A DNA stretch of 39,014 nt from a virus, in the IMG/VR virus record IMGVR_UViG_3300000117_000073, positions 1 through 39,014 of that record; one strand, given 5' to 3'. Positions 6,773-39,014 of the stretch are shown here, piece after piece. Position 1 is the stretch's first letter, and the number at the start of each line of letters is the position of its first letter. The translations under genes and the position numbers were made by a program. The notes beneath the pieces are model-generated. The model saw only the letters and a program-made list of their open reading frames with translations. It was not told the origin of the DNA and did not search any database.

Positions 6773-7051
6773 TCACTCCTTCCATGTGCTAGGTGATGAA
6801 TCACGGTCTGATTCCATAGACCTTCTTCGCAACTTGCACCTGTTAGCAGGGTTTCTAGGATTCTTACCGCATCGCTCACCTGTTTCAGCACCACATTGAG
6901 GACAGGGTGCAGCTTTAACGACACCCCATGCCTTTTCAAAAGAAGCGTATTTTTTCTTGTTTGCCTCTTTCACATCAGGGGGGCAAGTGCAAAGCGGAGA
7001 ATCTGGAACATCGCAAAATCTTCCGCAACAAGGGCCAGCTTCTTCACTCAT
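6773..7051 (-). CDS. Small cysteine-rich protein with internal F-E-K-A-W tag
   Basis: This 92-residue protein has an N-terminal cysteine cluster (C8, C9, C13, C21, C23), then the recurring tag ASFEKAWGVVK at residues 36-46, then a second cluster CPQCGAETGERCG with C72 and a basic tail. The second part looks like a zinc ribbon. The start is ATG in an ATGA overlap with the upstream gene. This copy of the tag is internal, directly before the zinc cluster, as in the protein at 38738-39014. Function is unknown. It lies among capsid and neck genes, so it may be a virion or assembly component. Confidence 0.75.
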   Translation of the reverse strand: MSEEAGPCCGRFCDVPDSPLCTCPPDVKEANKKKYASFEKAWGVVKAAPCPQCGAETGERCGKNPRNPANRCKLRRRSMESDRDSSPSTWKE

Positions 7052-9238: not shown

Positions 9239-10408
9239 CTAAGCACTCAAGTCCCTCACTTTACCATGCGCACCATAGAACAGTTGCCAAAGGTCGCCCA
9301 TAGTATGGAACATACCCATTTGACCTAGCCTGTTGATTCCAAATGGATCGCCAGTTTCAATACCAGATTCGTGATATAGAGTAGGTTTAGCTGTGCAGAA
9401 ATACATATAATCTGTATCCATGTAGTATAGACGACTTAATCCGCCACCATCTTCAACTACATCTTTAGAAGGAATTAGAGGAACACCGTTGTATGTTGCT
9501 ACGATGAAACCAGCTTCCATACCGGGAACACCTTTTACACCATTTACGCCGGGTGTGACTCTCTTCATCTCAGTAAATCTTTGCTGAGGTTGTAGTAGTT
9601 GTTGGATTTTCTCAAGTGTGTCATAGCCAGTTAAGATAACTTTTGGCTGACCTCCACGTTCCCATACACTTCGGAACATACCGTCAAGGATGTTCAAAGT
9701 TAGTGGTCTTTGAGCTGATGTTGTTCCCGCATCTACGTTAGCATCATACCATTGTCTTGAGCTTCCATCGTCTGCTCTATCAATATTGTATTGCTTGTGG
9801 TCGCCAGCAGCTATATCGCTGAAGCTTGTAGTTTCAATGTTAGTAGCAGATATGCAACGATCTAATGATTCAAAGTCATTTAATGTAGTTGAACGGTTGC
9901 TTACATCGCTTAGAAGCATTTTATTGATAACTTCAGCGTGATGTTTAGCCATTTCCATTTTCATAACAGCTCTTGCATCTCCAAGACCGTCATCTTTGTC
10001 AGCCAAGAACATAGCTGTTTCTGATAGGTCAAAGGTATGAGCTACTGTGCGTGGTTTGTCGCTGACATGAGCAAACTCAGGCTTGATTGTATCTGGTAGT
10101 GTTCCGTTCTCAGGAAGTCCACCACCTACTGCACCTGCATTCGGTTTGCCTGTGACGACTCTCCATCCAGATTTTTCCCATGGTTTCTTTGGTAGTATAG
10201 AAAAGGCGTTGAACTCTTGGTTGAGTTGCGACCATACCTTTCTACCAAATATTGCTTGGTATGTACCTGTGGTGGTACTCATTAAAGGCGAATCTGCCTT
10301 CAAAAGGTCTGTACCGGAATATGCCCATGCGTTAGCACCTGCACCAGCTCCGTAGTATAGCCTCTCCATATCTTCAATCGTGCGTATGTATCCTCTCGAA
10401 CCACTCAT
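9239..10408 (-). CDS. Major capsid protein (HK97 fold)
   Basis: This 389-residue protein is placed directly after the prohead protease, as in HK97-like heads. The sequence has the usual order of an N-arm, a mixed core and a long central helix (DARAVMKMEMAKHHAEVINK), followed by beta-rich sequence (GGQPKVILTGYDTLEKIQQL) and a C-terminal region (GIETGDPFGINRLGQMGMFH). Similar proteins serve as the main head subunit in marine archaeal and bacterial tailed viruses. The start has a GAGGTGA site embedded in the end of the protease gene, two bases apart from it. Its family placement is by pattern recognition, since capsid proteins have no catalytic motif. Confidence 0.85.
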   Translation of the reverse strand: MSGSRGYIRTIEDMERLYYGAGAGANAWAYSGTDLLKADSPLMSTTTGTYQAIFGRKVWSQLNQEFNAFSILPKKPWEKSGWRVVTGKPNAGAVGGGLPENGTLPDTIKPEFAHVSDKPRTVAHTFDLSETAMFLADKDDGLGDARAVMKMEMAKHHAEVINKMLLSDVSNRSTTLNDFESLDRCISATNIETTSFSDIAAGDHKQYNIDRADDGSSRQWYDANVDAGTTSAQRPLTLNILDGMFRSVWERGGQPKVILTGYDTLEKIQQLLQPQQRFTEMKRVTPGVNGVKGVPGMEAGFIVATYNGVPLIPSKDVVEDGGGLSRLYYMDTDYMYFCTAKPTLYHESGIETGDPFGINRLGQMGMFHTMGDLWQLFYGAHGKVRDLSA

Positions 10409-10410
10409 AT

Positions 10411-11757
10411 TTAGTCACCTCTTCTTACAGCCCTACGAGCTAAATCTTCAACAGCTCTCCATCCATCAAGATCAGTACCCATAGCTGCGTACTCTTCATG
10501 TGTAGGGACTCTAATGTCAGTTGGTTGAACTACAACGGATTTTTGTATTTCGTTGTTAGTAGTGCGTAGGTTTGCGATTTCATGCTTTAGTGCATTAATT
10601 TGCCCTGAGTAATCTCTCGACTTCTGAACTTCTAAAGCTCTTGCAGTTTCAGCTTGGTATCGAGATTCCCAATCGCTTTTTACCATGCCTTTGAGGGATT
10701 CTTCATCACGAAGGCTTGCATAAGCCCTGTAACCTTTTTCAAGACCAGCAGGGGTAATTTCACCAGATGATGCTTTTCTAACTCTGCGAGATTTGATTAC
10801 GTTTTTATTTCCAGATGGACCTTTGTAAGCCATGTTAGAAACGCCCGGTTGCTTGATAACATATTTATTTCCGCCCGGTGCTGCAAGAGCAGGGTATGAA
10901 GGCTCAGAAGCATCTTCACCGCTTCCTATTTCATCTCCTTGACCTCTATGTGTATGACCGCTATTGCCATCCACACCAGCTAAGTATGCTTTTTCAAGAC
11001 CAAAATGGCCTCTTAGTTTGTCAAGATCAATTCCTTGCTCATGTGCAAACTTCTCAAGAGTATCAATGTAGGCTACTGCCGTATTGTTCTCAGTTGTTGT
11101 TTTTTCCACCGTACCTGTATCCATGTGTTTCAATACACGGCTTAGGCCATCTCTTATTTCACTTAATGCTTCACTTTCAGTCATTTTTTCACCTTTATTT
11201 ATTATTTCAGATTCATCCATCTTAAGGATTGTATAACGAGCTTCAGGATTAATCCCTTTCTTACATAGAGTAACCTCATGTAATTCTAGCTCGGTAATCT
11301 CACGGTGGGATCCATGTTCTGGTGTATGCTTTGATACACGGAACAATGCTTGCCCTCCTATTGAAAAGGCTCGAAGGTCGCCATCTCTAATTTGATTTTG
11401 CACCTCTCTTGCCTTCTGTATGTCGCTTCTTATCTTACAAACGACAAAAAGGCCGTGGTCATCAACTTCTGATTTCCATACTCGACCTTGTGAATCTGAA
11501 TGGTCGGCTACAACCTCTCCGACTTGTATTCCGCTATGTGCGAGCTGAACATTTCTAAACGCTTTATTTTCCATAAACTTAGAAAAAGCTTTTTTCAATG
11601 CCTCGCCCGGTATTCTATCACCCTGCTTATCTACCATATCTACACTAGCATATCCAGCGATGTATAAATCACCACCAACTTGAGACTTCAAGATGAAATC
11701 TGAGCCGACAGCACTCCACTTAAGAGTAGGTTGTAATACAGCCTCTGCGGTTGCCAT
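10411..11757 (-). CDS. HK97-type prohead protease with C-terminal scaffold-like extension
   Basis: Numbered from the upstream TTG, residues 35-190 form the U35/prohead protease domain: GYASVDMVDKQGDRI, then QLAHSG (His81), LRAFSIGG (Ser139) and ELHEVTLCKKGINPEARYTI (Glu168 region), the typical His-Ser-Glu/Asp order. The remaining roughly 265 residues are charged, with a coiled segment (YQAETARALEVQKSRDYSGQ, then IANLRTTNNEIQK), typical of a fused scaffold. It would cut scaffold and capsid precursors during head maturation. I prefer the ATG at 11757 because neither start has a Shine-Dalgarno and a TATA-like box lies 23-30 bases before this ATG. A TTG at 11778 would add seven residues. Confidence 0.87.
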   Translation of the reverse strand: MATAEAVLQPTLKWSAVGSDFILKSQVGGDLYIAGYASVDMVDKQGDRIPGEALKKAFSKFMENKAFRNVQLAHSGIQVGEVVADHSDSQGRVWKSEVDDHGLFVVCKIRSDIQKAREVQNQIRDGDLRAFSIGGQALFRVSKHTPEHGSHREITELELHEVTLCKKGINPEARYTILKMDESEIINKGEKMTESEALSEIRDGLSRVLKHMDTGTVEKTTTENNTAVAYIDTLEKFAHEQGIDLDKLRGHFGLEKAYLAGVDGNSGHTHRGQGDEIGSGEDASEPSYPALAAPGGNKYVIKQPGVSNMAYKGPSGNKNVIKSRRVRKASSGEITPAGLEKGYRAYASLRDEESLKGMVKSDWESRYQAETARALEVQKSRDYSGQINALKHEIANLRTTNNEIQKSVVVQPTDIRVPTHEEYAAMGTDLDGWRAVEDLARRAVRRGD

Positions 11758-11779
11758 TGGTGAACTATCGTTATTCAAT

Positions 11780-17279: not shown

Positions 17280-19055
17280 TTATTCATCAGACTGACCTCT
17301 TTGGCCGTCTATGTTCAATCTTTTCAATTTGGCATCAGCTATTTTTTCAGATGATGTTTTATCTGTATCCTTATTGCCTTTAGATGAAATAGGTGAACCT
17401 TCATTGTGAATTATACGTTCATTCTTTTTGGTTTGACCGCCTCTTGTTTGAGCTATTCCACCTTCTCTAAGTGGTCTGATAGTTGAACCTCTTGTTGATA
17501 CCATAGCCGAAGCGTCTGGAACACTACCATGAACTGAATCAGTTACATCTCTTTTGAATACTTCAAACTCGCCCATTTTCTGAACAGGAGCTTGCCCCCC
17601 ACCTTGTTCTTGAGCCATAGCAGCTTCTTGAGCAGCTACTTCTTCTTCATTTGGTTCTGAATAATCAAACTTAAGATATACATCGTCTATGTCATCTCTC
17701 AACTTAGCATTAAATCCAGATTGTTTCATCTGCATCATGTTACGGATAGCCATTTCATCTCTTCGTAGTTGCATAATTTCATCCTCTTCTTCATGAGGCG
17801 TTAATGTAATCTCCCACTCATCTATTCCAAATGCCTCAAGCAAAGCAGGGAATAGAAGTCTGTTGTATATAGACTGAGAAAAAGATACAGACCTATTACT
17901 TACTACAATTTGCATACCTTCATTGTTTAATCCGCCACCAGATACGTCATTCATAAATACATTTGATACACCATAGAATGCAGATATTCTTTGGCGAATA
18001 TCATCTTTGATAGGTATATACTGTAATTCCTCAAGAGTATCCATCATTCTAACATATTCTAAACCACCTCTTCCTGATTCAGTTTCAACACCAATTGTAG
18101 GTATGTAATTTGGATCACGTTCAAGATGCTCTTGAATATTACGAGCTGTTCTTTCAACAGTTTCCATATTAGATGATTTGATTACCATAACACCTCTTGG
18201 CATTCTTCTCTTTTGATAAGCTGAATAAACATAATTATCCATAGCTATGAGAGTATTTACTTGTCGCCACATAGTAGCTACAGGACTTCGACCATACAAT
18301 TTAGATGGCGACCATTTGCTAATATGTATTACTTCGCCCTCAGTATAGACTTGACCTGAGCCTACACCTGCAAGATTCATGTAATGAATAGGAACAACGG
18401 GCATACCAGTTGTAGGGCAAAGAGCAGAAGCATCTGTTGTTCTATATGCTCTATCCACTAAGCTAGTATATTGTGAACCGCCTCTAACCCCTCTTTTGTC
18501 AGAAAGTATTCTCATAAATATAGGGTCAGCTCTTGAAATCTCTTTTATTCTAAAGAAAGTAGGTGATTTAGTTTGAGGGTCAATGAAATATTCTTTTGTG
18601 ACAATTAAATATGCGTCATCAACAATATTCAAATCCATTTCCAATTCTCTTAGAACGTCTATAAATGTCTGACCCATACCATTTACATTACTAAATATTG
18701 CATCAGCGTATTCAATTTGACTCCTATCTGCCTTTCTAACTTCCCCGCCTGTTTCAGGATCCATTTCGTATTCTTGATTGAAGTATTGGTCGGTATCTAC
18801 GCTTTTAACTACAAACTTAGGCTTCCAACCCCACCCTTTTCTAAAAGTTTCAACACAAAGATGATTCAGTATAGATCTTAAAACCATACATTCGTATGAT
18901 GCGGCATACAAAGCTGGTATTGTGATACCTTGTAATAGTGCAGGTTCTTGAATCCCTGATGTGAATAAAGGCATAGAAGGAATAGGCGTTGTATGCCTTT
19001 CCATATCTAAACCAACAGCAGAAAATATTCGGTCCATGCGTTTCTTATCAACCAC
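17280..19055 (-). CDS. Portal protein
   Basis: This 591-residue protein forms the head vertex ring through which DNA is packaged and ejected. Typical portal features are visible: the N-terminal segment YECMVLRSILNHLCVETFRK, the core with FFRIKEISRADPIFMRILSD and VIHISKWSPSKLYGRSPVAT, the helical crown region (KDDIRQRISAFYGVSNVFMN, then GGGLNNEGMQIVVSNRSVSF), and an acidic, Gln/Ala/Gly-rich C-terminal tail. The position two genes after terminase supports the call. The start is GTG preceded by GAGGTGA inside the last codons of the upstream gene, overlapping it by eight bases. The length is in the usual portal range. Confidence 0.92.
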   Translation of the reverse strand: MVDKKRMDRIFSAVGLDMERHTTPIPSMPLFTSGIQEPALLQGITIPALYAASYECMVLRSILNHLCVETFRKGWGWKPKFVVKSVDTDQYFNQEYEMDPETGGEVRKADRSQIEYADAIFSNVNGMGQTFIDVLRELEMDLNIVDDAYLIVTKEYFIDPQTKSPTFFRIKEISRADPIFMRILSDKRGVRGGSQYTSLVDRAYRTTDASALCPTTGMPVVPIHYMNLAGVGSGQVYTEGEVIHISKWSPSKLYGRSPVATMWRQVNTLIAMDNYVYSAYQKRRMPRGVMVIKSSNMETVERTARNIQEHLERDPNYIPTIGVETESGRGGLEYVRMMDTLEELQYIPIKDDIRQRISAFYGVSNVFMNDVSGGGLNNEGMQIVVSNRSVSFSQSIYNRLLFPALLEAFGIDEWEITLTPHEEEDEIMQLRRDEMAIRNMMQMKQSGFNAKLRDDIDDVYLKFDYSEPNEEEVAAQEAAMAQEQGGGQAPVQKMGEFEVFKRDVTDSVHGSVPDASAMVSTRGSTIRPLREGGIAQTRGGQTKKNERIIHNEGSPISSKGNKDTDKTSSEKIADAKLKRLNIDGQRGQSDE

Positions 19056-20391
19056 TCTTCATCACCTCTTGTTTCATCAAATCAAAATTGCTAACAGATA
19101 ATTTTTTACTTTTCAAAAATGCAACTTGCTTTTTCTTGTCAAGTGAATCGTGTATCATTACCATCAACGCATTCTTATCTCTTCTGAGAGCCTTCTCTAA
19201 CAAAAATGCTTCGTGATTTTCAGCCATAATATGAGGCAAAGCCATATCTAACGCTTTAAGCACACCCTTTTCTCCTTCTATTGTAAGACCACCTGCTGTG
19301 GGTTTAACACAATCAACTCCTATTTCTTTATTCAATGCTGTAGCATACCAAGGTGCAGTAGGGGCTTTGAAGTTTAATTCAATACGAGGATTAGATCTTA
19401 TATCAAACTTAATTGTAGAACCTGTTTCAATTAAACCAGCTAAGAAACGGTGTGCATCTTTCAAAATCACATCTCGTCTTTTAATATCATAAAACAACCC
19501 TCTTCCTATTGATTTACTAACAACCCCTACCGATACAATATCATAAAGAAATCCATGTGATTTGATTAAAGAAGAAATCTCAGCCGGACTAGCTCGAACA
19601 CCATTAAACTTCAAAGTATGAGCATTCAAAGCACCTTTTCTTAATAACAAATCAGAACATTGTGAAAGAATGTTTCTTTCTCTTGCAGATATTCTTTGGT
19701 CAGCATCAACAACAGATTTCCAAACATTGTATGATTCGTTTCTAGCTTGTGATGTATTTGCTGATTCCCACATTTTTACAAACCTTCTGAAAGGAATACC
19801 TAATCTTCCAGAATATCTATTCAAACGATCATAATCTATATCAGTTAATGGTAATTTCTTAACTAACTGTGGTGAAACACCCGGAAATGATGACAATATT
19901 GCTTTCTTTTCTGCAATAAGAAGGGGATAAAGTGCATCTAAAGCTTCTAACTCTTGTTTTTGAATTAATAAAGATGCCATTTCTGAACCCGTCATTCCAA
20001 AATTATCTAAGAACCAATTTTTGTCAAGAGATAGTTGTATATTTGGGTCAGTAGGTAAGCCTTCTTTGGTAGGTGCAGACACTTCACCATCCACATCAGA
20101 TGTAGGAGATGAGCTTTCAGGACTATCCATACCTTCTATCTCCGCACCCTGCCCCTCTTGAGTCTTAGCCTTGTTAGCCTTGTCAGCATCCACCTTTTGC
20201 GATGCTGTTAGAGCTTGCGTTGCTTCTGAAACTTTAGCTTGTAATGCTTGAGTAGCTTCAGAACCAACGGCTGCACCGAACCCTGTTGCTGCAGCTAAAC
20301 CTGCTGCGGCCAAAGGATTTTTACGAATATCAAGAGAATCTGCAAGAGTTTCAACACCTGTCAAACTTTTGATATAACGTCTATCAAGCAT
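19048..20391 (-). CDS. Unknown protein between terminase and portal
   Basis: From ATG at 20391, overlapping the terminase stop by eight bases, the product has 447 residues. An in-frame upstream start would lie deep inside the terminase. It has an Ala-rich N-terminal segment (NPLAAAGLAAATGFGAAVGS), an Ala/Gln heptad-like stretch, a Ser/Pro/Glu linker, and a 320-residue folded domain (LNRYSGRLGIPFRRFVKMWE, then ISARERNILSQCSDLLLRKG, then GRGLFYDIKRRDVILKDAHR). I do not recognise the fold. Insertion of such a gene between terminase and portal is not unusual and may provide a packaging or head accessory role. Confidence 0.72.
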   Translation of the reverse strand: MLDRRYIKSLTGVETLADSLDIRKNPLAAAGLAAATGFGAAVGSEATQALQAKVSEATQALTASQKVDADKANKAKTQEGQGAEIEGMDSPESSSPTSDVDGEVSAPTKEGLPTDPNIQLSLDKNWFLDNFGMTGSEMASLLIQKQELEALDALYPLLIAEKKAILSSFPGVSPQLVKKLPLTDIDYDRLNRYSGRLGIPFRRFVKMWESANTSQARNESYNVWKSVVDADQRISARERNILSQCSDLLLRKGALNAHTLKFNGVRASPAEISSLIKSHGFLYDIVSVGVVSKSIGRGLFYDIKRRDVILKDAHRFLAGLIETGSTIKFDIRSNPRIELNFKAPTAPWYATALNKEIGVDCVKPTAGGLTIEGEKGVLKALDMALPHIMAENHEAFLLEKALRRDKNALMVMIHDSLDKKKQVAFLKSKKLSVSNFDLMKQEVMKSG

Positions 20392-21799
20392 CTTGCCACC
20401 CCAATCTCTTTTGCCAAGTAGCACCATCAAGAATTACAATGTTTTCTCTATATTCTTTAGTAGCCTGAACTGAAAGAGCTAATGCTATGACCATATCGTC
20501 ATGAGCCCCTAAACTCGCCATCTTACCATTATCAAGCATAGTAAAATATGATAATTCAGTCAATAAAGCATTCATGTGCCTTCGAGTAGCACCTTCATCC
20601 TTGTATGGAATAAGTAAATGCCGTTGTTCAAAGTGCAATTGTAATGTATGAATAAGTGCTTCCTTTTTCATCCTACTCATGTTGAAAGGTTTGATTGGTA
20701 AATCACTAATTTCTTGAAGAACTTGGTTAAATGCCATAGCAAAATTGTTAGTTTCAAGCTCTATTATAACAGGATTAAATCGAGTATTCAATTCAATTAT
20801 TTTGTCTATTTGCTGATTAAAATCCATATTTTTCTCATGATGAACATGAACTACTCTTTTGTGCCTATTTTCATCCATACCTATTACAATCATACAAGTG
20901 TAGTCAGCCCTTCTATCTGCGCTGATTGCCGGATCCCAACCAATATAATAATTCAAAGCTTCATCTGGTTCAGGATAGTATGACAAAGCCAAAGTGTCAT
21001 CTTTTACTCTCTCTAATGTTTCTTCGGGGAATAAGCTTGACTCACTAGCTATCGGTTTGCATAAGTATTCTCTTGTAAAAGCAATAGAAGTCATTTCACC
21101 TTTACGAGCATTCAAAGCATCAAGATTCCACCTTTCAGGCCATAGTGGTTCACCTGAAGCTTCGTTAATTGCAGGGTATTCTCTAACACAATAACCGTCT
21201 AAACCCTTTAACTCAGAATACAAATCAGTATAGGAGAAAGGCGTTCCGACAATGCACATTTGAGCAGTATGGTGAAGAACAGGAAGAAGTGCAGTATAGA
21301 ACCATGTAGCTATGGACTTTAGTTGTGTTTGAGCTTCACTTGATAGAATATCGTCAAGAACTACTATGTCAGGGTGAGCCCCACGAACCGCCTTACCGAT
21401 AGACATAGCACGAATAGATGACCTGTTGGTGAACTTGAATAACTGCTTAGCCCAACCTCTTTTGGGCTTTAGATGTGCAAGAGCTGGTGTTGTAACTATT
21501 AGCTCATCCATTTTAGCCATGTGGTCAATAGACTGATGCTGACTGTGGCTAAAGAATAGAACTTCAGTATTAGGGTTGTAAGCCATTTTCCATAACAAAT
21601 AGCATCTAAAGAATACAGATTTACCATGATCACGGCTTGCTATAACGCATATCTTACTGTTATTCTCGGCATTCTCATACCATTCTTTGTGAAAATGTGC
21701 GAGCTGAAATCCACATATATCTTCAAAGAAGTATTGGAAGTCACGCCTTCCCATTTCAAAATCAACCTTACTGGCTAATCTTTGAACGGCATCACTCAT
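20384..21799 (-). CDS. terL: Terminase large subunit
   Basis: From ATG at 21799 this is a 471-residue DNA-packaging motor with ATPase and nuclease domains. The Walker A-like ASRDHGKS lies at residues 55-62, Walker B DIVVLDDI at 144-151, and the coupling-like GTPFSYTDLY near 185-195. The RNase H-like nuclease shows the acidic residues in GWDPAISADRRADYT (Asp289), VIIELETNNFA (Glu347 region) and GAHDDMVIALAL (Asp434/435). All key residues are present, so the protein appears active. An ATGA overlap with the upstream cysteine-rich gene decides the start; an in-frame ATG four codons earlier is less likely. Confidence 0.95.
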   Translation of the reverse strand: MSDAVQRLASKVDFEMGRRDFQYFFEDICGFQLAHFHKEWYENAENNSKICVIASRDHGKSVFFRCYLLWKMAYNPNTEVLFFSHSQHQSIDHMAKMDELIVTTPALAHLKPKRGWAKQLFKFTNRSSIRAMSIGKAVRGAHPDIVVLDDILSSEAQTQLKSIATWFYTALLPVLHHTAQMCIVGTPFSYTDLYSELKGLDGYCVREYPAINEASGEPLWPERWNLDALNARKGEMTSIAFTREYLCKPIASESSLFPEETLERVKDDTLALSYYPEPDEALNYYIGWDPAISADRRADYTCMIVIGMDENRHKRVVHVHHEKNMDFNQQIDKIIELNTRFNPVIIELETNNFAMAFNQVLQEISDLPIKPFNMSRMKKEALIHTLQLHFEQRHLLIPYKDEGATRRHMNALLTELSYFTMLDNGKMASLGAHDDMVIALALSVQATKEYRENIVILDGATWQKRLGWQDA

Positions 21800-22170
21800 A
21801 CGAATCCCCAAGCCTTCTCAAAAGAAGATTTATTCATTTCTTGGAAATCACTTTGAAAGGTGGGTCCGGTAGTTTCTTGGGATAAGCAATCTTCGCATCT
21901 TTCGCCCGTGCTAGTCCAATCTCTAGCTAATACATCGTAAGATAAGATTTCATCCTTACAATCTTTACAGCTCAACATAGCTGACCCCTCTCCGGGCAAT
22001 ACATATTCCCCCTTTTTCTTACCGCAATTATCGCACATGGGGTTTGAACAGTCGGGGCATCTGCACTCAGTATTCTGTACCGAATCACCTGCGCATCTTT
22101 CGCAAACAGCATCTTCACCCCATTCTTCAGGAATAGGGTTTTCACAATAAGCGCAACCGCAGCTACTCAC
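21796..22170 (-). CDS. Multi-zinc cysteine-rich protein ending in the F-E-K-A-W tag
   Basis: From GTG at 22170 (overlapping the upstream stop as GTGAGTAG) this is a 124-residue protein with many CxxC pairs: CGCAYC, CERC, CRCPDC, MCDNCG, CKDC, CEDC. This pattern suggests several zinc knuckles. The very last residues are NKSSFEKAWGFV, the recurring tag at the C-terminus, ending before the usual Lys. Its stop overlaps the terminase start by ATGA. A DNA- or protein-binding role near the packaging motor is possible, though nothing proves it. Confidence 0.75.
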   Translation of the reverse strand: MSSCGCAYCENPIPEEWGEDAVCERCAGDSVQNTECRCPDCSNPMCDNCGKKKGEYVLPGEGSAMLSCKDCKDEILSYDVLARDWTSTGERCEDCLSQETTGPTFQSDFQEMNKSSFEKAWGFV

Positions 22171-23293
22171 TATCCCACCCCGCAGGTAGCAAGCTCGTAT
22201 CCCCTTTTGGAGCTTCGGCATCTTTATTGAATGCACTTGAAGGCAACAAACTCATATCATCACCTCTTCTTGCATCAAAACCTGCGTTTATTAGAGCTTC
22301 TTCGGGTGATTCGCCTTTGATTAAATCTGGTTGTAGTGAAATTATGGGTGTGTTATCATGTGTAACTTCGGGTGGTTGTTCTTCAGATAGAGATGCAAAG
22401 CCATCATTGAAGAACGGATTTGCGAATGGATCTTTAACGACAGTCCAGCTATCCGCTACTTGATGTGGTTCTGAAGCTTGTTTATCTTCGCCTCTTCCGA
22501 GAAGCCTTTCTATTTCTTCATACCCTTCTTGATTTTTTAGTTTTGCTTCCTGTTCCTCTTCATACTTTTGTTGTGAGGTTAAAAGCCGTAGTAATTCATG
22601 GTCGTTTTCCAATTCTGAATTATTTGGAGATGGCGGTGTAGGCGCACCCTCAGCCCCGCCTGTAAATCCTGTTCCCGGTATTTCAGCTCTTACGGTTTCA
22701 GGCTGTATCTCATCATTTGATATTTTTGGTTCTTCAGTAAGTGTAGGTGGTGAAGCAGTAACGGAATCCATAGATTCGGGTATGGCTGGCTTTGGCTTAT
22801 TCATTTGTTCTAATGCCATTCTATGTTGCCGAACACCAGCTTCTAAACCATCAGGATTTCTAATTAAATTATTGACTATGTATTCGTTTAGAGCTTCTTG
22901 TTCTTTTTGTTTCTGTTTGACCTTTCTTGTGAAATCGCCAAAGAAGCCTTTCTCAACATCTTCAGCTTCGGATTCACCTCCTTCCCAAGCATTATTAGAT
23001 TCAGCCCATCCACCGTGCCAACAATCATCGCAAATAGGATGTTCATACATCATCAAACCAGCTCCTTCATAGCTACCGCAATTAGCACAATGTCTTTCTG
23101 AATGTGTAGATGAACTCAATTCTTCATCGTCTGCCATATCTTGTTCGTGTTGCCCTGAAGAATGCCATCTATCCCAACAAGTAGTTTCTTCTCCATCAAT
23201 TTCAACACGGCAATCACTTCCACACTTACCGCATTTGAATCTCTCATTCTTAGCAATATTCCAAGCTAGGTCAAATATATCATCTGTAGGCAA
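22163..23293 (-). CDS. Tagged zinc protein with two copies of the tag
   Basis: This 376-residue protein starts at TTG with a GGAGG site about nine bases upstream. The N-terminal tag DIFDLAWNIAK (residues 5-15) is followed by CGKCGSDC and later HCANCG and CDDCWHGGW, giving zinc clusters. A second, diverged tag VADSWTVVKDP lies around Trp283. Between them is a Lys/Glu-rich helix (DFTRKVKQKQKEQEALNEYI) and Pro-rich disordered sequence. It lies just upstream of the C-terminally tagged zinc protein and terminase. Function is unknown; architecture suggests an adaptor with a sorting tag and zinc fingers. Confidence 0.72.
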   Translation of the reverse strand: MPTDDIFDLAWNIAKNERFKCGKCGSDCRVEIDGEETTCWDRWHSSGQHEQDMADDEELSSSTHSERHCANCGSYEGAGLMMYEHPICDDCWHGGWAESNNAWEGGESEAEDVEKGFFGDFTRKVKQKQKEQEALNEYIVNNLIRNPDGLEAGVRQHRMALEQMNKPKPAIPESMDSVTASPPTLTEEPKISNDEIQPETVRAEIPGTGFTGGAEGAPTPPSPNNSELENDHELLRLLTSQQKYEEEQEAKLKNQEGYEEIERLLGRGEDKQASEPHQVADSWTVVKDPFANPFFNDGFASLSEEQPPEVTHDNTPIISLQPDLIKGESPEEALINAGFDARRGDDMSLLPSSAFNKDAEAPKGDTSLLPAGWDSE

Positions 23294-28649: not shown

Positions 28650-29096
28650 CTATTGCCCTTCAAACTTGCGTAAATGTATTCCACAATAACCCTTTTCTGA
28701 TTTATCAGATATACGCCTCTTACACCTATCACCAGATGATGTATGAGCTACACACCGTTCTGCATCAGTAGGATTTCTATAACATTCAACACATACACCC
28801 GTTTGATATTTTGATTTCTTTTTTAGTGCTTTGCCGCATCTAACGCAAGCTCTTTTTGTTGGTTTCCCGTCTTTAGGTGGGGTAGGCAAAAACGAATCAG
28901 CTAAACCATGTAAATCGTCAAGATTTATTTTCCCATCATTGTTTCTATCAAGAGTTTTCTTAGCTACAGCCTTTACATCTTGAAAATTAACTTTACCATC
29001 TTTATTGTAATCAAAAGGCGAATATTGTTGTTGGCGATAGTGTGCAACGGTAGGGGGTCGGTAGGGCCCCGCCATCGCCATAGATGGGGGGCTCAT
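28650..29096 (-). CDS. Two EF-hand loops plus zinc-finger protein
   Basis: This 148-residue protein has two calcium-binding loops, DYNKDGKVNFQD (29-40) and DRNNDGKINLDD (50-61), spaced like a dockerin or paired EF-hand. A zinc ribbon follows with CVRCG (84, 87) and CVECY (102, 105), and then CVAHTSSGDRCKRRI to GYCGIH (115, 125, 138, 141), a pattern known from small phage and bacterial zinc domains. It overlaps the membrane protein gene upstream by ATGA. Calcium-dependent protein binding is likely; partners are unknown. Confidence 0.78.
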   Translation of the reverse strand: MSPPSMAMAGPYRPPTVAHYRQQQYSPFDYNKDGKVNFQDVKAVAKKTLDRNNDGKINLDDLHGLADSFLPTPPKDGKPTKRACVRCGKALKKKSKYQTGVCVECYRNPTDAERCVAHTSSGDRCKRRISDKSEKGYCGIHLRKFEGQ

Positions 29097-32714: not shown

Positions 32715-33941
32715 TTAGATTTTTCGCATGAATTGTCGTAAATCCAAACCATCATCTATGGTTCGAGCAAATGGTTGATAATTTTCACCGTAATCCAATT
32801 CCATTGGGGGCATATTTGGTCTTGTTTGCATTAAATCAATTGGGCGATTTTTACCACCTTCGGTATGAAGATTGTAACTAATAGGCCCTTCATGTTCCCA
32901 ACAATCTCTACAATCATAATCGTCACAATTACCCCCTAAAACTGAAGCAGGGCAGGTTTTAGATGAAGGATCAATAGATGAAATCTCACTTACTCCTACA
33001 TTTCTCATTTCTTTCAATTCATCTAACAGGCTTGTCACATTAGAAAGACCAAAAATATCATTAATTGTATTATCTGAAGCTTGTCCTATAAAAGGAACAG
33101 ATATTCTAGTTTTCATATTATCTGGAATTGCATCAACACCCCTTTCATCCATTACTTGCTTTACGCCACCCATTTGACGAGTAGGTAGCCAAAACTTGCC
33201 GTGAGGAAGATTTCTTCCTATGTCTATCAATTGAGCAAAATGCTTAGCACCAAAGTTCTTTTTTCTTTCTCCTTTGCCTCTTTGTAAGTCACCACTATCC
33301 ATCCATCTCCAATAAGGTTCACCATCAAACAACATTTGCGCATTTATTCTATCAGATAACGCTGAAGCATATTTTGGATCGTTCCGAGTCAAGCCATGAA
33401 GATTGTCATACATTTGAACCTGTTTGTTGTTCAAAGGATACCTGCCTTTTGTTGCATAACAAGCATGACAACCTGCTGTTTTAATTCCAGCTAATCTCAT
33501 TCCTACATCACAAGTATGAGCTGGGAAGGCCAACGACCCTCCGGGCATCTTTGATGTAAATGAAAAGCCACCGCCAATTAAGTTCTCAGCTAACTGCTTT
33601 TGTTTTCTGCCCGTCAAATCAGTAAGGTCGCTCAATGGTGCTATTGTTTGAGGTTCATCTGTTATCCAATCAACCCTATTTTCATCGAGATATTGATTTA
33701 ATTTATCTTTATTTGAAAGTATCCAATTGAAAGTGCTTCTATCGTTTTTACTCCAAGGCTCTTGACCACCAAATCTCTTACTCCAATGCCCCATTTCTCC
33801 CTTATCACCGTATGCTTTTAACAACAAATTAGCCGTGTAAGCAACAATATTGTTGTCAGAATCGCATAGAGCTTTTACTATCAACCAAGCCTCTTCAAAA
33901 GAGTCAAGGCTATCACCCATAATAAACTGTTGAGAGCCCAT
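32715..33941 (-). CDS. GP88-like protein with N-terminal tag
   Basis: This 408-residue protein starts with the recurring tag (DSFEEAWLIVK at residues 13-23). The rest matches what I know of the GP88 family of phage proteins: a Cys cluster with GCHACYATKGRYPL near 157, WRWMDSGDLQ near 214 and GKFWLPTRQMGG near 247, then CPASV and CDDYDCRDCW near the C-terminus. GP88 proteins are phage accessory proteins of poorly known function. The conserved Cys positions suggest bound metal. A second in-frame ATG lies at residue 8. The tag joins it to the group of tagged proteins. Confidence 0.78.
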   Translation of the reverse strand: MGSQQFIMGDSLDSFEEAWLIVKALCDSDNNIVAYTANLLLKAYGDKGEMGHWSKRFGGQEPWSKNDRSTFNWILSNKDKLNQYLDENRVDWITDEPQTIAPLSDLTDLTGRKQKQLAENLIGGGFSFTSKMPGGSLAFPAHTCDVGMRLAGIKTAGCHACYATKGRYPLNNKQVQMYDNLHGLTRNDPKYASALSDRINAQMLFDGEPYWRWMDSGDLQRGKGERKKNFGAKHFAQLIDIGRNLPHGKFWLPTRQMGGVKQVMDERGVDAIPDNMKTRISVPFIGQASDNTINDIFGLSNVTSLLDELKEMRNVGVSEISSIDPSSKTCPASVLGGNCDDYDCRDCWEHEGPISYNLHTEGGKNRPIDLMQTRPNMPPMELDYGENYQPFARTIDDGLDLRQFMRKI

Positions 33942-34312: not shown

Positions 34313-34879
34313 TCACCTGTAAGCTTCAGTATAAGCTCTCATCAAATCTCTTCCTTTACAGCCTACCAATCGGCAAACCTGTTGAACGGCTTCCATAACA
34401 GGCATACCCTGTTCAACCAAATCTCTCACTTCTTCAACAAAATCTTCTGCACCGTTCATTTCATGTCGAAGCTGACCAGATGGTGTCAAATCTTCACCAT
34501 CAGGATTTTCATCGTATTTCTTTACAGGTCCTCTTGGTGTAGGACCAGCTCTTTTGAATCTCTCAATGAGTCCTTTTGAACCAAGAGCTTGAGATGAGCT
34601 ATCAGGCATTGAAGCTGGTTCATTGTCAAACATATCCTTGAGCCTTCCATACTCATCTTCAATACCATCATTATCTGTTTCTAATATGTTAGCCATAACT
34701 TTTCGATTATGTTCTTCGCCACCAGTTGTTGGTGTCATATCGCCAAACTTCTTTGGAACACCTTTTGAACCCGGTCTAAGTGAATCTAGCTTACGGTTAA
34801 ACTTCTCACCAAAGTTATTTCCTCTTATGTGATTAGTATCGTATTTCACGATACCCCAAGCCTTGTCGAATGCTGTCAT
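34313..34879 (-). CDS. Tagged unknown protein
   Basis: From ATG at 34879, one base after the previous stop, this is a 188-residue protein with the tag MTAFDKAWGIVK at the N-terminus. An upstream in-frame start is rejected because it overlaps the previous gene and an AGGA site precedes this ATG. The middle is charged and disordered (RKLDSLRPGSKGVPKKFGDM), and the C-terminal 50 residues are helical (DFVEEVRDLVEQGMPVMEAV). The function is unknown. Confidence 0.75.
   Translation of the reverse strand: MTAFDKAWGIVKYDTNHIRGNNFGEKFNRKLDSLRPGSKGVPKKFGDMTPTTGGEEHNRKVMANILETDNDGIEDEYGRLKDMFDNEPASMPDSSSQALGSKGLIERFKRAGPTPRGPVKKYDENPDGEDLTPSGQLRHEMNGAEDFVEEVRDLVEQGMPVMEAVQQVCRLVGCKGRDLMRAYTEAYR
34847..34879. 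repeat. Tag-coding direct repeat, copy 1
   Basis: This 33-base segment encodes the start of a tagged protein. It matches the copy at 35381-35413 at 31 of 33 positions and is identical to the copy ending at 35042 over the last 24 bases, while downstream coding sequence is unrelated. Confidence 0.8.
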
Positions 34880-34880
34880 C

Positions 34881-35042
34881 TCAATTCCTGCCTTTGTGCC
34901 ATTCAGCACATTTCAAATCGTCACATGGATGGAAGCCTTGTCTGCAAGGACATTTGGATGTACCTGCATACGGTGAATCTTCTGGCCCCTCGTCATAGTC
35001 GTCTGCCTTTACTACATTCCAAGCCTTGTCGAATGCTGTCAT
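34881..35042 (-). CDS. 53-residue tagged zinc-cluster protein
   Basis: ATG at 35042 follows a GGAGATG site; the product starts MTAFDKAWNVVKADDYDEGP and ends with a Cys/His cluster (KCPCRQGFHPCDDLKCAEWH). It has four Cys and two His, enough for one zinc ion. It is a minimal example of tag plus zinc module. The genes on each side carry the same N-terminal tag with nearly identical DNA, so this small gene is very likely real. Confidence 0.72.
   Translation of the reverse strand: MTAFDKAWNVVKADDYDEGPEDSPYAGTSKCPCRQGFHPCDDLKCAEWHKGRN
35010..35042. repeat. Tag-coding direct repeat, copy 2
   Basis: The last 24 bases are identical to the end of copy 1. The first nine bases differ more (AWNVVK instead of AWGIVK). 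Confidence 0.75.
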
Positions 35043-35044
35043 CT

Positions 35045-35413
35045 TCACATCTCCATTATTCTTTGCCTAAGTGCGATAAGAGCCTCGACATTAGCAATAT
35101 CTTGCGGGTGGTTTTCACCATCGTTATCTTCTGCCGCAGTTCTCATCTGTGCCACTTCATCTGTTGTAAGTCCTTCAATGGCTTCTTCTCTAAATACATC
35201 TATCATTTGTTCATCGGTTAAACCGTGATAACCGGGTATATTTCTCCTAACTTTGTCTAAAAGCATCTCTATTGGTTGCTGTTCCAAAGGAACGGGTAAA
35301 TCCGCCATTTTTCTATTAGGGTCTACATCTCCTTCCCCTAAACCTCTAAACCTTTCAAGATTATCATATTCATCGCCTTTCACGATACCCCACGCCTTGT
35401 CGAATGCTTTCAT
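35045..35413 (-). CDS. Tagged unknown acidic protein
   Basis: This 122-residue protein starts MKAFDKAWGIVKGDEYDN, with a GAGGCGA site upstream. The remainder is helical and acidic (MLLDKVRRNIPGYHGLTDEQ, then DVFREEAIEGLTTDEVAQMR). It has no cysteines. Its tag DNA differs from that of the gene at 34879 at only two of 33 positions. Function is unknown. Confidence 0.75.
   Translation of the reverse strand: MKAFDKAWGIVKGDEYDNLERFRGLGEGDVDPNRKMADLPVPLEQQPIEMLLDKVRRNIPGYHGLTDEQMIDVFREEAIEGLTTDEVAQMRTAAEDNDGENHPQDIANVEALIALRQRIMEM
35381..35413. repeat. Tag-coding direct repeat, copy 3
   Basis: It differs from copy 1 at two bases. All three copies sit exactly at gene starts, so the repeated unit is the coding tag. 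Confidence 0.8.
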
Positions 35414-35423
35414 CTTAATCGCC

Positions 35424-36083
35424 TCAAAATATATTCCTCATATCTTCATATCCGCCATCGGCCAATCTTTGTAATAATGCAAGCATATTCATTCTTTCGA
35501 CCCTTCCTTTTTGCCCTGCTCCGTCATGGTCGTAACTATATCCGCTTTCACCGTAATTTCCTTCACCGATTCGATCATATCCCAATCTGTAATTCAAATC
35601 ATAAGGGAAATCATCTGAGTATTGATCCATGCCACTAAGAGATTTCATGTCATCTTCTGTCATTTCCCAATCATCTCCAAATAGCTCTTTTTCGCTTGGC
35701 CTGTTTCTTGAAAGACCTGCGAAATCACCACCCATATCATAACCCGTCTGCAACCACATTTCTGGGTTCTGAGTTAGCATTTCTATTATTGGAAGCATAG
35801 ATTTTGGCATCTTCACATAGACCATCTCTTCATCGGTCATCGCCTTGCTTACGCCCCCATCACAATGCCCCCTTCCATTCTTAGAATCTTGATTATGGCA
35901 CTTTTCACCAATTCTTCTTTCAACACCACAGCCGGGGCAATCTTCCCATCCACCGCCTTCACGCTCATTCATAGATTCAGCAGGTGTTTTGCCACAATGA
36001 AGGCAGTTTCCACTCATATCGGTGGTCGTGCAATCACAACCTTCTTCTTTGGTTATTTTCCAAGCTTTTTCAAAACTACTCAA
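35424..36083 (-). CDS. Tagged zinc protein
   Basis: This 219-residue protein starts at TTG, overlapping the upstream stop, with a GGGAG site about eight bases upstream. The tag SSFEKAWKITK is followed by two zinc-like clusters: CDC...CLHC (Cys16, 18, 27, 30) and CPGCG...KCHNQ...GHC (Cys49, 52, 62, 74). The remainder is acidic and Gly/Tyr-rich (YSDDFPYDLNYRLGYDRIGE) with a helix at the end. It is a clear example of tag plus zinc ribbons. Confidence 0.75.
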   Translation of the reverse strand: MSSFEKAWKITKEEGCDCTTTDMSGNCLHCGKTPAESMNEREGGGWEDCPGCGVERRIGEKCHNQDSKNGRGHCDGGVSKAMTDEEMVYVKMPKSMLPIIEMLTQNPEMWLQTGYDMGGDFAGLSRNRPSEKELFGDDWEMTEDDMKSLSGMDQYSDDFPYDLNYRLGYDRIGEGNYGESGYSYDHDGAGQKGRVERMNMLALLQRLADGGYEDMRNIF

Positions 36084-36592
36084 CCTAACATCTCCCTTAT
36101 CATTTCTATTTGTTCTGGTGAAGCTCTTCTTAGCATATTTAGAAGGTCATAATCTACACCCCTCACCATAGAAGGTGGTTCATAAACATCTGAAGGTCTT
36201 GGAGTGTATGGGTTTTCTTTCGCCCAAGCTTGCATAGCCCGTTCATAGGCAGCATCGTCATCAAAAATCCCTTGTGCTTCAAGAGCTGCGACACCCTCTT
36301 CATCCATTTGCCCGCCATACGGCCAATCATCCAAGTATTCATCTTGATCTCCTTCTCTCATATAACCGCCTTTAACTCCGCCTGTTTCGCCGTATCTTCG
36401 TGAAACCAAATCACTAAGCTCTTTACCCGATCCTTGTAAGGCATCCAAATAGCTCATACCATAATCACCAGATTCATCGTCAGACATTCCCATAGCCATA
36501 CTAACTATGTGTTGAATCATCCTCCTTTCTTCTTCATCATGCTCTTGACCCATTTTTACTATGGGCCAAGATTTATCAAACGCATCGACCAT
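36080..36592 (-). CDS. Tagged unknown acidic protein
   Basis: This 170-residue protein starts MVDAFDKSWPIVKMGQ, a tag variant with Ser for Ala. The rest is acidic (DEEERRMIQHIVSMAMGMSD, then RRASPEQIEMIREMLG at the end). It has no cysteines. The ATG lacks a Shine-Dalgarno but has a TATA-like box 26-33 bases before it, so it may begin a transcript. Confidence 0.74.
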   Translation of the reverse strand: MVDAFDKSWPIVKMGQEHDEEERRMIQHIVSMAMGMSDDESGDYGMSYLDALQGSGKELSDLVSRRYGETGGVKGGYMREGDQDEYLDDWPYGGQMDEEGVAALEAQGIFDDDAAYERAMQAWAKENPYTPRPSDVYEPPSMVRGVDYDLLNMLRRASPEQIEMIREMLG

Positions 36593-36617
36593 GTAATTTG
36601 ACCTATGAAGGACAATA

Positions 36618-36625
36618 GATTTTAA
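36618..36625 (-). promoter_or_regulatory. Candidate archaeal TATA box for 36080-36592
   Basis: TTAAAATC on the minus strand is 33-26 bases before the ATG at 36592, in a 40-base gap. The spacing fits a leaderless archaeal transcript. Confidence 0.45.
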
Positions 36626-36632
36626 CAGTTCA

Positions 36633-37076
36633 CTAAATATCGTTATAAAATCCTAAGCTTTGGCGTAATTTTAACTTTTCTTTGTGATCTCTTAGCAATT
36701 CAATAGCTCTTTCGATATTGATTTCGTTTGTTTCTCGGTTTCTAGCTTGATTTAGAAGCATATTCCAATCTTCTTTTACTTTGCCTCTAATTTGGTGTCC
36801 TTTCTTTGAACCTCTTGACCTATTCAAAGCTTCAAAATAATAAGATTCTATTGCGGTATCTAAATCATCAAAAGGACCCGAATAATTATCGGTGGCCGAC
36901 CTTGCATCAGTAGCATTAACAAAACCACCACAGTTTGGGCAAAAACCAAGCTCATCAAGCACACCAAGTTTTGATGAGCCACTAATTGGGATTCTTTTTG
37001 CTTGACCTATACTCATTAGAGAACCACCACAGTTAGTGCAATTAAAACCCCATTTGTTAGACCATTCATCCGTCAA
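36633..37076 (-). CDS. Zinc-ribbon protein
   Basis: The start is TTG at 37076, seven bases after a perfect GGAGG site; an upstream ATG would overlap the previous gene by 62 bases without a site. The 147-residue product has CTNCGG and CPNCGGF about 30-35 residues apart, a classical zinc ribbon near its N-terminus. The C-terminal half is helical and basic (NMLLNQARNRETNEINIERA). It lacks the recurring tag, though EWSNKWGFNC has a weak resemblance. Nucleic-acid binding is possible. Confidence 0.72.
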   Translation of the reverse strand: MTDEWSNKWGFNCTNCGGSLMSIGQAKRIPISGSSKLGVLDELGFCPNCGGFVNATDARSATDNYSGPFDDLDTAIESYYFEALNRSRGSKKGHQIRGKVKEDWNMLLNQARNRETNEINIERAIELLRDHKEKLKLRQSLGFYNDI

Positions 37077-38400
37077 GTGTATTCCTCCTTGCGTTTTCTC
37101 TTGCCCTAAGCCCCATAGATACCTCAAACGGCCAAGTATTGAATGGATTTATGCCTACTTGCTCAGGATTGCGAGCTAAATCTAGTATATCGCCAACATC
37201 GGAATTGGGGTATTCGTTCAATGCCTTGAATCTCTCTTCTGGTGTTGCACCCATCGTGTGAGCTTCAGCCGCATGAGCAGCATATTCTTGAGCTGAAGTC
37301 CATTTTCTATTTACTTCTCGTTGCTTCTCTCTCGCTAACTCTTTTCTCTCGGATTCGCTCAATCCTTCGGGATATTCGCCCCTGTGCCTTGCGTATTCCC
37401 ATAAATCATCAGAATGAGGCGGGCTTAGTGCCTGATGAGCTTGCTCATGGGTTAATATCTGGACTATCCTTCTAATCATCTCATCCTCGTCTGTTTTACC
37501 GCCCCAACTCGGATTATCCCATGTCATGCCGCCTAAATTGACGAATGCCTCATCATTATTCGGATCATACCCACCTGCCGTGAACATATCGGGGAATCTT
37601 CGGAGATAACGAAACTCTTTCACAATCTTTGGGTGAATGTTGCCTTCGGGGTCTGTAGCTACCCATGGCTTTTGTGATGCACTATCAATCATGCCTTCAT
37701 CTACTAGCTTATTCCAATAATCAACGGTATCGTTTTCAATATTGGTAGCTCTAATCGGCAAATCCTCGCCCTCATATTCCTTCAATTCAGTTATCATTTC
37801 ATTTAGCCTATCTCTTGATAGCCCCTTGCCTTTCTTATCATTAGCCATTTGAAATAGAACCATTTGCAGATATGAGCCGAGTTCGGGGTCATCATCTTCA
37901 TCTACATAATTCGCATAACCTTGTGCATCACCTTGTTCTGACTCCCAAAGCATTGGGTTGTTATCACCATGCCCAATCATCCTATCCTCAGCTATATTGA
38001 TTGTATCAAACTTGTAATTCTCAGCATCATCGTGCCAATCATCAGTATTGACTTGATAGGGGTGATAGATAGGCATCTTTATCAAAGGCCATTGTGCATT
38101 CCAATTATCCATAAACTCGGCCATTGTTCCGTATTTTGGATGCACGACATTATCAATATATTCTCTATCAACCCCATATAGCTGTAATTCCTTGTCGTAT
38201 TTATCGGGATCGTAATAGTGATGGTTAGGGTCATTAACATCGTCTGCGTTTAACCTACCCATTAAAGCGGCAAGAGAATATGGGCAATCAAGAGTCTGCC
38301 CACCATTAGGCCCACATACTGGGCAATCCTCCCATGCACCAATACCATGAGCTAAAACATCATACTTCACCAAATCCCATGCTCGGTCAAAGGCGGTCAT
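37066..38400 (-). CDS. Tagged putative HExxH metalloprotease
   Basis: From ATG at 38400 (ATGA overlap) this is a 444-residue protein with the tag MTAFDRAWDLVK and then a CPVCGPNGGQTLDC cluster near residues 26-39. Residues 318-322 are HEQAH within VQILTHEQAHQALSPPHSDD, the HExxH zinc-protease signature. A later EYAAHAAEAH could supply a third metal ligand. The region between has no recognised domain (e.g. LSRDRLNEMITELKEYEGED). It may cut viral or host proteins, but HExxH alone is not proof. It shows a possible enzyme bearing the tag. Confidence 0.75.
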   Translation of the reverse strand: MTAFDRAWDLVKYDVLAHGIGAWEDCPVCGPNGGQTLDCPYSLAALMGRLNADDVNDPNHHYYDPDKYDKELQLYGVDREYIDNVVHPKYGTMAEFMDNWNAQWPLIKMPIYHPYQVNTDDWHDDAENYKFDTINIAEDRMIGHGDNNPMLWESEQGDAQGYANYVDEDDDPELGSYLQMVLFQMANDKKGKGLSRDRLNEMITELKEYEGEDLPIRATNIENDTVDYWNKLVDEGMIDSASQKPWVATDPEGNIHPKIVKEFRYLRRFPDMFTAGGYDPNNDEAFVNLGGMTWDNPSWGGKTDEDEMIRRIVQILTHEQAHQALSPPHSDDLWEYARHRGEYPEGLSESERKELAREKQREVNRKWTSAQEYAAHAAEAHTMGATPEERFKALNEYPNSDVGDILDLARNPEQVGINPFNTWPFEVSMGLRARENARRNTLDG

Positions 38401-38738
38401 TCCCATGCCAACCCCCCTATCTGTTCAATTGTGCTTGGTTCAGCAAACACCCTTTCAATTCCGCTTTGGTTTATGTAAAAGAGGGGTAAAGAGGGTAATT
38501 TATGAAAAGAGGCGGCATAATCGTCTGCAATATGCAAGTGTTCGCCATATCCCAAACCCTGTTCCAATGTGGCTAAATCACTTGCCGATACATTGTTTGC
38601 TAAATCATCATAGGTTGTTTCAATTGAATTATCAATGATATAATGCAAAACCGCCACATCGTCAAAACCATTAACACAATTTCCGTAATACGGCAAACCT
38701 TGTTTCAACAAAACCCAAGCTAGGTCAAAGGCGGTCAT
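38397..38738 (-). CDS. Tagged unknown protein
   Basis: This 113-residue protein starts MTAFDLAWVLLKQGLPYYGN and has a GGTGA site upstream in a TAATG coupling with the previous stop. The rest is acidic and helical (DDVAVLHYIIDNSIETTYDD). It has one Cys and no known motif. Its tag DNA shares at least 15 bases with that of the next gene. Confidence 0.73.
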   Translation of the reverse strand: MTAFDLAWVLLKQGLPYYGNCVNGFDDVAVLHYIIDNSIETTYDDLANNVSASDLATLEQGLGYGEHLHIADDYAASFHKLPSLPLFYINQSGIERVFAEPSTIEQIGGLAWE

Positions 38739-39014
38739 TAGAAATCACCCGCACAGTCGCAGGGTCTTTTCCAATTAGGAGGGTAATAAGGTAAGTTTGG
38801 GTATCTGCCATAAGTGTCTTTCACCTTCTCGCAAAGCCAACACCTTTCTTTCTTAGCTACAGACCAAGCATCCTCAAACACATCACCAGAAGCTGTGAAA
38901 TCACCCGAAAAGTCCTCAGATATACAAGATTCCCATTGTTCAAGCACCTTTTTCGCTGCTTGTTGTTCTATGCCCTGTGGACTATCAACATCGTCATACA
39001 CAAGCCATTCCAAC
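38738..39014 (-). CDS. Tagged cysteine-rich protein (partial, N-terminus off right edge)
   Basis: The reading frame is open at the right edge, so the start is not known. The visible 91-92 residues have a helical first part (GIEQQAAKKVLEQWESCI), then the internal tag DVFEDAWSVAKKE, directly followed by CWLCEK and a terminal PCDCAGDF. The order tag then zinc cluster matches the protein at 6773-7051. Function is unknown. Confidence 0.65.
   Translation of the reverse strand, partial: LEWLVYDDVDSPQGIEQQAAKKVLEQWESCISEDFSGDFTASGDVFEDAWSVAKKERCWLCEKVKDTYGRYPNLPYYPPNWKRPCDCAGDF

Follow-up and report, generated by a model that had tools for sequence, protein, structure and literature searches.

A short peptide tag on unrelated proteins of magrovirus-type marine tailed viruses: a candidate protease-cleaved signal for loading cargo into the head

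What does one short peptide do on a dozen viral proteins that otherwise seem to have nothing in common? The question is raised by IMG/VR virus record IMGVR_UViG_3300000117_000073, of which the entire stretch of 39,014 nucleotides was analysed (39 kb, hereafter the window). Coding in the window lies nearly all on the minus strand, and an earlier reading of the letters alone (the sequence-only reading) had noted the pattern F[DE].[AS]W.[VILF].K on twelve of its proteins. The peptide, an example form of which is MTAFDKAWGIVKA, is probably a removable, protease-cleaved cargo signal that loads proteins into the virus head. Six-frame translation of the window yielded 11 matches to the strict pattern, all of them in coding open reading frames (ORFs) of the minus strand and none on the plus strand. 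Two DNA patterns back-translated from the tag each gave 11 minus-strand matches, 0 plus-strand matches and 0 matches in the backwards control. The first bases of the Phe codons are located at 38878, 38729, 38391, 36580, 36074, 35404, 35033, 34870, 33899, 23275 and 6940. The strict copies and one truncated copy are as follows:

38852..38878, minus strand: tag FEDAWSVAK, internal in ORF 38738-39013, a zinc-cluster protein
38703..38729, minus strand: tag FDLAWVLLK, N-terminus of ORF 38397-38738
38365..38391, minus strand: tag FDRAWDLVK, N-terminus of ORF 37066-38406
36554..36580, minus strand: tag FDKSWPIVK, N-terminus of ORF 36080-36592, an acidic protein
36048..36074, minus strand: tag FEKAWKITK, N-terminus of ORF 35424-36083, a zinc-cluster protein
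35378..35404, minus strand: tag FDKAWGIVK, N-terminus of ORF 35045-35413
35007..35033, minus strand: tag FDKAWNVVK, N-terminus of ORF 34881-35048, a small zinc-cluster protein
34844..34870, minus strand: tag FDKAWGIVK, N-terminus of ORF 34313-34909
33873..33899, minus strand: tag FEEAWLIVK, near the N-terminus of the GP88-domain protein 32715-33941 (Pfam PF17338, E 3.8e-12)
23249..23275, minus strand: tag FDLAWNIAK, N-terminus of ORF 22163-23293, just upstream of the terminase gene
21796..21822, minus strand: truncated tag FEKAWGFV*, without the final Lys, C-terminus of ORF 21796-22236
6914..6940, minus strand: tag FEKAWGVVK, internal in the zinc protein 6773-7051, which adjoins a baseplate-like gene (4920-6758)

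Eleven of the twelve tagged proteins first described therefore carry a strict copy, but the twelfth (ORF 21796-22236) has only the truncated form (MNKSSFEKAWGFV*, window 21780-21850). With its final codons it overlaps the terminase start codon (ATG), and it is possibly a decayed or frameshift-dependent copy. The second, diverged copy that had been assigned to the ORF at 22163 was not found, as the position-weight scan places a single site above threshold in that protein, while the GP88 likeness of another carrier was borne out by the Pfam match listed above. The internal tag FEDAWSVAK has counterparts in contig G023, as the second of two tags on a longer protein, and in contig G033, as one of several tags.

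Chance does not account for these copies. Genes were called by a simple longest-ORF rule, and the 45 predicted proteins of the window contain 9 strict tags (9 rather than 11 because this set drops overlapping short ORFs), whereas 200 shuffles produced none. The 1,971 predicted proteins of 30 contigs contain 271 strict tags, against a mean of 0.00 after shuffling and 0 after reversal; a position-weight scan found 360 sites at a score where reversed proteins yield none. Three opposite-strand matches of the form FDDAVGVVK or FDDAAGVVK belong to the viral thermosome and were rejected as tags. When the pattern was sought in related viral genomes, as had been suggested, a DNA pattern for M-T-A-F-[DE]-x-A-W matched 108 stretches of IMG/VR, many of the contigs having 5-10 clustered matches, and a second scan of the collection with a different anchor returned mostly the same contigs. 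The 108 stretches contain 471 distinct tagged ORFs, in 449 of which the tag is near the start codon, most commonly three residues past Met. Among the tags of the 30 contigs, 235 of 271 are N-terminal and 36 internal. The proposed placement, mostly N-terminal with an internal or C-terminal minority, is thereby retained, but in most proteins the tag begins 3-4 residues after the start rather than at the very end.

The tag also follows the virus lineage. In a set of contigs selected by the capsid protein it occurs in 12 of 30. Each of the other 18 reaches at most ~27 kb upstream of the capsid gene, on the side where, judging by coordinates, the cassette of tagged genes lies, so that the absence of tags is explained by contigs that end short of this region. 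The N-terminal tag was also sought in 84,980 bacterial and archaeal genomes, with 0 matches, and hence no use of it by hosts or proviruses was seen. The tag on the window proteins is confirmed as real, and its extent is far wider than first described.

The carriers are otherwise unrelated, as had been claimed. Stripped of the tag, the 471 ORFs fall into 179 groups without detectable mutual similarity, and when 137 representatives are aligned, no column is invariant except the F and W of the tag. These numbers bear on the view that the tag marks a simple paralogous family, is an element at the DNA level (a start-region signal or a recombination site) or arose by chance. In favour of this view, the tags of one genome share codons somewhat beyond what codon usage predicts, and internal tags lie at domain-swap junctions, where 14 pairs of proteins are homologous up to the tag and not detectably beyond. 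For example, an ADP-ribosyltransferase-like protein (L158, G023:C1:40385) and a zinc protein (L181, G004:C1:39435) are nearly alike over 141 residues up to the internal tag and then unrelated. However, a paralogous family is contradicted by the 179 groups and the lack of full-length homology, and chance by the tag-free shuffled and reversed proteins. A DNA-level signal was rejected on the variety of synonymous codons at invariant residues (GCT, GCA and GCG for Ala, TTT and TTC for Phe) and on the 36 internal copies among 271. All three versions of this view are very improbable. Tags within a genome resemble each other more than tags of different genomes, even on unrelated proteins, and none of 300 label permutations reached the observed value, as would be expected if each virus had one cognate receptor. 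In contig G041 (L215, G041:C1:2395-9537, plus strand) 6 of 12 tags have Phe in place of Trp (e.g. MTAFDQAFTLLK), a concerted substitution that may help to identify the receptor through covariation.

What kind of signal could the peptide be? The extended pattern comprises 12 amino acids, [TS]-A-F-[DE]-x-A-W-x-[LIV]-[VL]-K-[AM], with T, S, D or N at position -2, A, P or S at -1, F at 0 (100%), D or E at +1 (94%), A at +3 (95%), W at +4 (100%), L, V or I at +6 (92%), V or L at +7, K at +8 (99%) and A or M at +9. On a helix, F, A, W and the residue at +7 share one face; the +6 residue is off that face, which suggests that it is conserved for another reason. A helix-capping box, in which an N-cap S, T, D or N is followed three residues on by D or E (tag position +1), is present in 370 of 447 N-terminal tags. 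In the AlphaFold model of one tagged protein, residues 3-10 are helical, at low confidence, and lie outside the folded domain. The tag looks like a two-part element, in which a capped amphipathic helix (T-A-F-D-x-A-W) continues as [LIV]-[VL]-K with A or M after it.

The second part can be compared with the head genes of the window, which include the following:

9239..10408, minus strand: major capsid protein, with an invariant LLK followed by AD at residues 35-39
10411..11778, minus strand: prohead serine protease (Peptidase_S78, E 3e-11), fused to a long coiled, scaffold-like C-terminal half
17280..19055, minus strand: portal protein of the head module, with relatives in archaeal viruses only
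19048..20430, minus strand: conserved head-module protein with the second-strongest [ILV]xK[AS] excess
20384..21811, minus strand: terminase large subunit of the head module, which sets the late strand

The protease-scaffold protein of the window contains 9 copies of the motif [ILV]xK[AS], compared with 1.0 expected (p ~1e-6), and 26 homologues together contain 202, compared with 30 expected. When K of the motif is swapped, the excess disappears (R 0 vs 18 expected, E 7 vs 34, Q 0 vs 14). In the capsid protein, the invariant LLK[AS]D at residues 35-39, where the propeptide is predicted to end, aligns with VSK103-AD of the Haloarcula virus HCTV-1, whose capsid protein has four [ILV]xK[AS] sites, every K lying within the first 103 residues and the last at exactly 103. 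The scaffold domain of HK97 consists of 103 residues (PMC10275583). PDB sequence searches with the capsid proteins found no solved structure that shows the mature N-terminus. The HCTV-1 protease and capsid protein (L118 24951-28342, genes 111 and 112) both carry [ILV]xK[AS] sites, which makes a cultivated haloarchaeal virus available for testing the predicted cleavage rule. The tag itself ends in a match to this motif, with [LIV] at P3 in 92% and K at P1 in 99% of tags. At P1' (tag position +9) A is enriched 4.4-fold and M 5.1-fold, whereas I, L, V, P and C are depleted, which resembles the residue after K in the scaffold half. The cargo bodies with the tag excluded contain 83 [ILV].K[ASMG] sites where 120 are expected, a ratio of 0.69. 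With E or Q in place of K, the ratio in these bodies is 1.44 or 1.57, respectively, and control proteins have 1.25-1.45 for K. The tag end looks like a cleavage site of the virus's own head-maturation protease.

The same match could be read more narrowly. The tag might be a mere processing signal or a generic internal-scaffold segment, its carriers being assembly factors that are degraded during head maturation and never delivered to a host. Multi-tag proteins, which resemble chains of domains split by sites, would fit this reading as well as the tag end does. Yet the site is under-represented in the cargo bodies, in contrast to the scaffold half, and the cargo includes recognisable enzymes; moreover, the F-x-x-A-W face is unneeded for recognition by the protease at the scaffold sites, which lack it. 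We see only a slim chance that processing is the whole function.

Gene order and strand connect the tag to the head. Tagged contigs have a common head module with the fixed order P-loop protein, terminase, portal, protease-scaffold, capsid and baseplate-like gene; in the window, the P-loop GTPase-like protein (31066-31794, weak EF-Tu/Roc match) opens the module, as in nearly all contigs that reach that point. The majority of tagged genes are grouped in a cassette that lies upstream of the head module, and others are found recurrently beside the terminase gene or before the baseplate-like gene. Relative to the terminase strand, 263 tagged genes are on the same strand and 1 is on the opposite strand, which holds 435 untagged genes (Fisher p ~1e-30); the tag therefore goes with the late, particle-making genes. 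The capsid and portal proteins match archaeal tailed viruses only, the best matches being the Haloarcula viruses HCTV-1, HCTV-5 and HVTV-1, and at least 587 IMG/VR stretches encode a relative of the window capsid protein. Long tagged contigs carry genes for a thermosome and for a helicase or family B polymerase on the opposite strand. In the Magrovirales, the morphogenesis and replication modules are oppositely oriented, and the closest named relatives are the Druskaviridae (PMC10768690, PMC12999244). The tagged viruses fit the Magrovirales of Poseidoniales, the latter as the presumed host, because of their Druskaviridae-like head module, opposite-strand replication module and thermosome; they are magrovirus-type marine tailed viruses. 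The head-gene cluster of the window also encodes a small protein (28650-29096) in which two EF-hand/dockerin-like calcium loops precede a zinc-cluster region.

Alternatively, the tag might dock to a late-stage hub outside the virion, such as the viral thermosome, a transcription factor, a polymerase or a membrane assembly site, and the tagged proteins would then act in the producing cell. Such a role would suit zinc and DNA-related cargo, a thermosome is encoded in most long contigs, propeptides of the T4 type have been linked to chaperonin recruitment (PMC10052503), and packaging is deduced from sequence only. A hub of this kind, however, leaves the [LIV]xK[AM] tag end and the avoidance of the site in cargo bodies unexplained, and the thermosome is encoded on the other strand and was not found in the tag-rich contigs G024 and G033, which are possibly incomplete. 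We regard action in the producing cell as unlikely, though it is the strongest competitor of head loading.

The attached proteins are of diverse kinds. The largest tagged group has an H-G-T motif, and its AlphaFold model (predicted local distance difference test score, pLDDT, 82) best matches KptA/Tpt1 and other enzymes of the ADP-ribosyltransferase fold. GNAT acetyltransferases form a second group, and further matches are to D12 DNA methyltransferases, ParB-like proteins (nuclease), an HNH/GH-E nuclease, a TFIIB zinc ribbon and GP88. HExxH-like metalloprotease motifs were recognised by eye in several tagged proteins. In the family of L090 1630-2439 (alignment A4), conserved VVK, E, QPRL, N and FDLD positions are suggestive of a protein-kinase fold, on which databases and model conferred no support; since Pfam, a PDB profile search and the structure model (pLDDT 49) were uninformative for this protein and its relatives, kinase-fold cargo is not claimed. 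A protein of 690 residues (L147, G033:C1:68020-70092, minus strand) has three strict tags and one diverged tag between cysteine-rich repeated domains and resembles a string of cargo domains between which the protease could cut.

In the most plausible model, T-A-F-[DE]-x-A-W-x-x-[VL] would form the capped amphipathic helix, whose F/A/W/[VL] face would dock on a receptor inside the prohead; our best guess for this receptor is the scaffold half of the protease-scaffold fusion. The sequence [LIV]-x-K, followed by A, M, S or E, would be recognised by the prohead serine protease that the virus itself encodes, and the protease would cut off the tag during head maturation. The freed cargo would stay in the head, exit with the DNA and act on the archaeal host at the start of infection. 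Several points weigh against this model. The support for head loading is entirely sequence-based, and the set of contigs with 1,971 proteins was mostly selected for carrying tags. The third-base identity of tags within a genome (0.53 vs 0.43 expected from codon usage) means that their similarity could partly reflect copying of tag DNA. The 26 protease homologues are not 26 independent observations, an objection that the test on the single window sequence answers in part. P1' of the tag (A and M, also E, G, N and D) is broader than the S/A of the scaffold motif. Finally, a share of the tags is internal, and the product of the tagged gene next to the terminase may be a structural part rather than cargo.

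With less assurance than for the signal itself, we favour a wider picture in which an entire order of abundant marine archaeal viruses relies on one evolvable plug-in tag to stock its heads with a large and rapidly changing set of enzymes for host takeover, among them ADP-ribosyltransferases, acetyltransferases, methyltransferases and nucleases. Recombination behind the tag would bring in new effectors, and in each virus the tag would have co-evolved with the protease and with a receptor in the head. T4, P1 and jumbo phages are known to deliver proteins together with their genomes; to our knowledge, no such cargo code is known in archaeal viruses. In the portion of the literature available, magroviruses and ADP-ribosyltransferases are named together in one item only, a general survey of the tailed viruses of archaea. 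Poseidoniales are uncultivated and among the most abundant archaea of the surface ocean. If the model is correct, a one-line sequence rule selects hundreds of candidate effectors against them and predicts the mature N-terminus of each, so that unannotated 'hypothetical proteins' become a testable class. It would further supply the rule by which an archaeal-virus prohead protease cleaves, as well as a ready-made tag with which proteins could be loaded into the heads of archaeal viruses.

Among known systems, encapsulin cargo-loading peptides were rejected as a parallel: the capsid gene sits together with those for terminase, portal and protease in a module of the tailed-virus type, and 235 of 271 tags are N-terminal. 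The sequence-only reading had proposed an amphipathic head-loading helix and likened it both to these peptides and to the capsid-targeting sequence (CTS) of T4. The first comparison fails on the tailed-virus shell and the mostly N-terminal tag, but the second gains support from the restriction to the head-gene strand, the match of the tag end to the protease site, the avoidance of this site in cargo bodies, the helix-capping residues and the effector-like cargo, which includes the ADP-ribosyltransferase fold, the enzyme class of T4 Alt.

Head and ejection proteins of SPN3US and phiKZ-type phages have N-terminal propeptides that are removed by a protease, and the cut motif AXE recurs within them (PMC10052503, PMC7411985). 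Unlike the tag, these propeptides are mostly 100-250 residues long, share no single common element and belong to jumbo bacteriophages. The Dar system of phage P1 (DarA, DarB, DdrB, Hdf) likewise places proteins, in this case antirestriction proteins, into the head; an N-terminal region of DarB is able to target a reporter to the capsid (PMC9024508), and DarA is trimmed by the prohead protease (PMC12810830). The Dar signal regions are longer, and a short common tag is not described for the Dar proteins in these two papers. By capsid protein and portal, the Druskaviridae (HCTV-1, HVTV-1) are the nearest characterised relatives, and they have the [ILV]xK[AS] sites of both the capsid propeptide and the protease in common with the tagged viruses. 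Six-frame translation of 100 of the 103 kb of HCTV-1 revealed no strict tag, and a search of HCTV-1 for some other N-terminal motif common to its proteins likewise gave none.

The closest parallel is the T4 CTS, also a short N-terminal peptide common to unrelated proteins (IPI, IPII, IPIII and Alt). As in T4, the prohead protease is encoded by the virus itself, here the Peptidase_S78 protein at 10411-11778. The two signals differ in sequence, in host, which is archaeal here, and in the residue at P1, which would be Lys in the tag and is Glu for the T4 prohead protease. T4 has four tagged proteins, whereas up to ~20 occur per contig here, with internal, C-terminal and multiple copies in addition, and the HK97-type S78 protease is fused to a scaffold half, unlike that of T4. 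Packaging is proven in T4 and deduced here. Within about 10 residues of the T4 CTS, residues 4 and 7 of IPIII serve targeting and residues 8 and 10 serve the protease, and Alt is an ADP-ribosyltransferase ejected from the head (PMC9026906). The layout of the tag is alike, with F4 and W8 as the putative targeting residues followed by [LIV]10 and K12 for processing. The T4 CTS is removed by the prohead protease, and its cargo includes the ADP-ribosyltransferase Alt and an anti-restriction protein. The best reading of these comparisons is that the tag would work like the T4 CTS, and this likeness of function is proposed without a claim to common origin.

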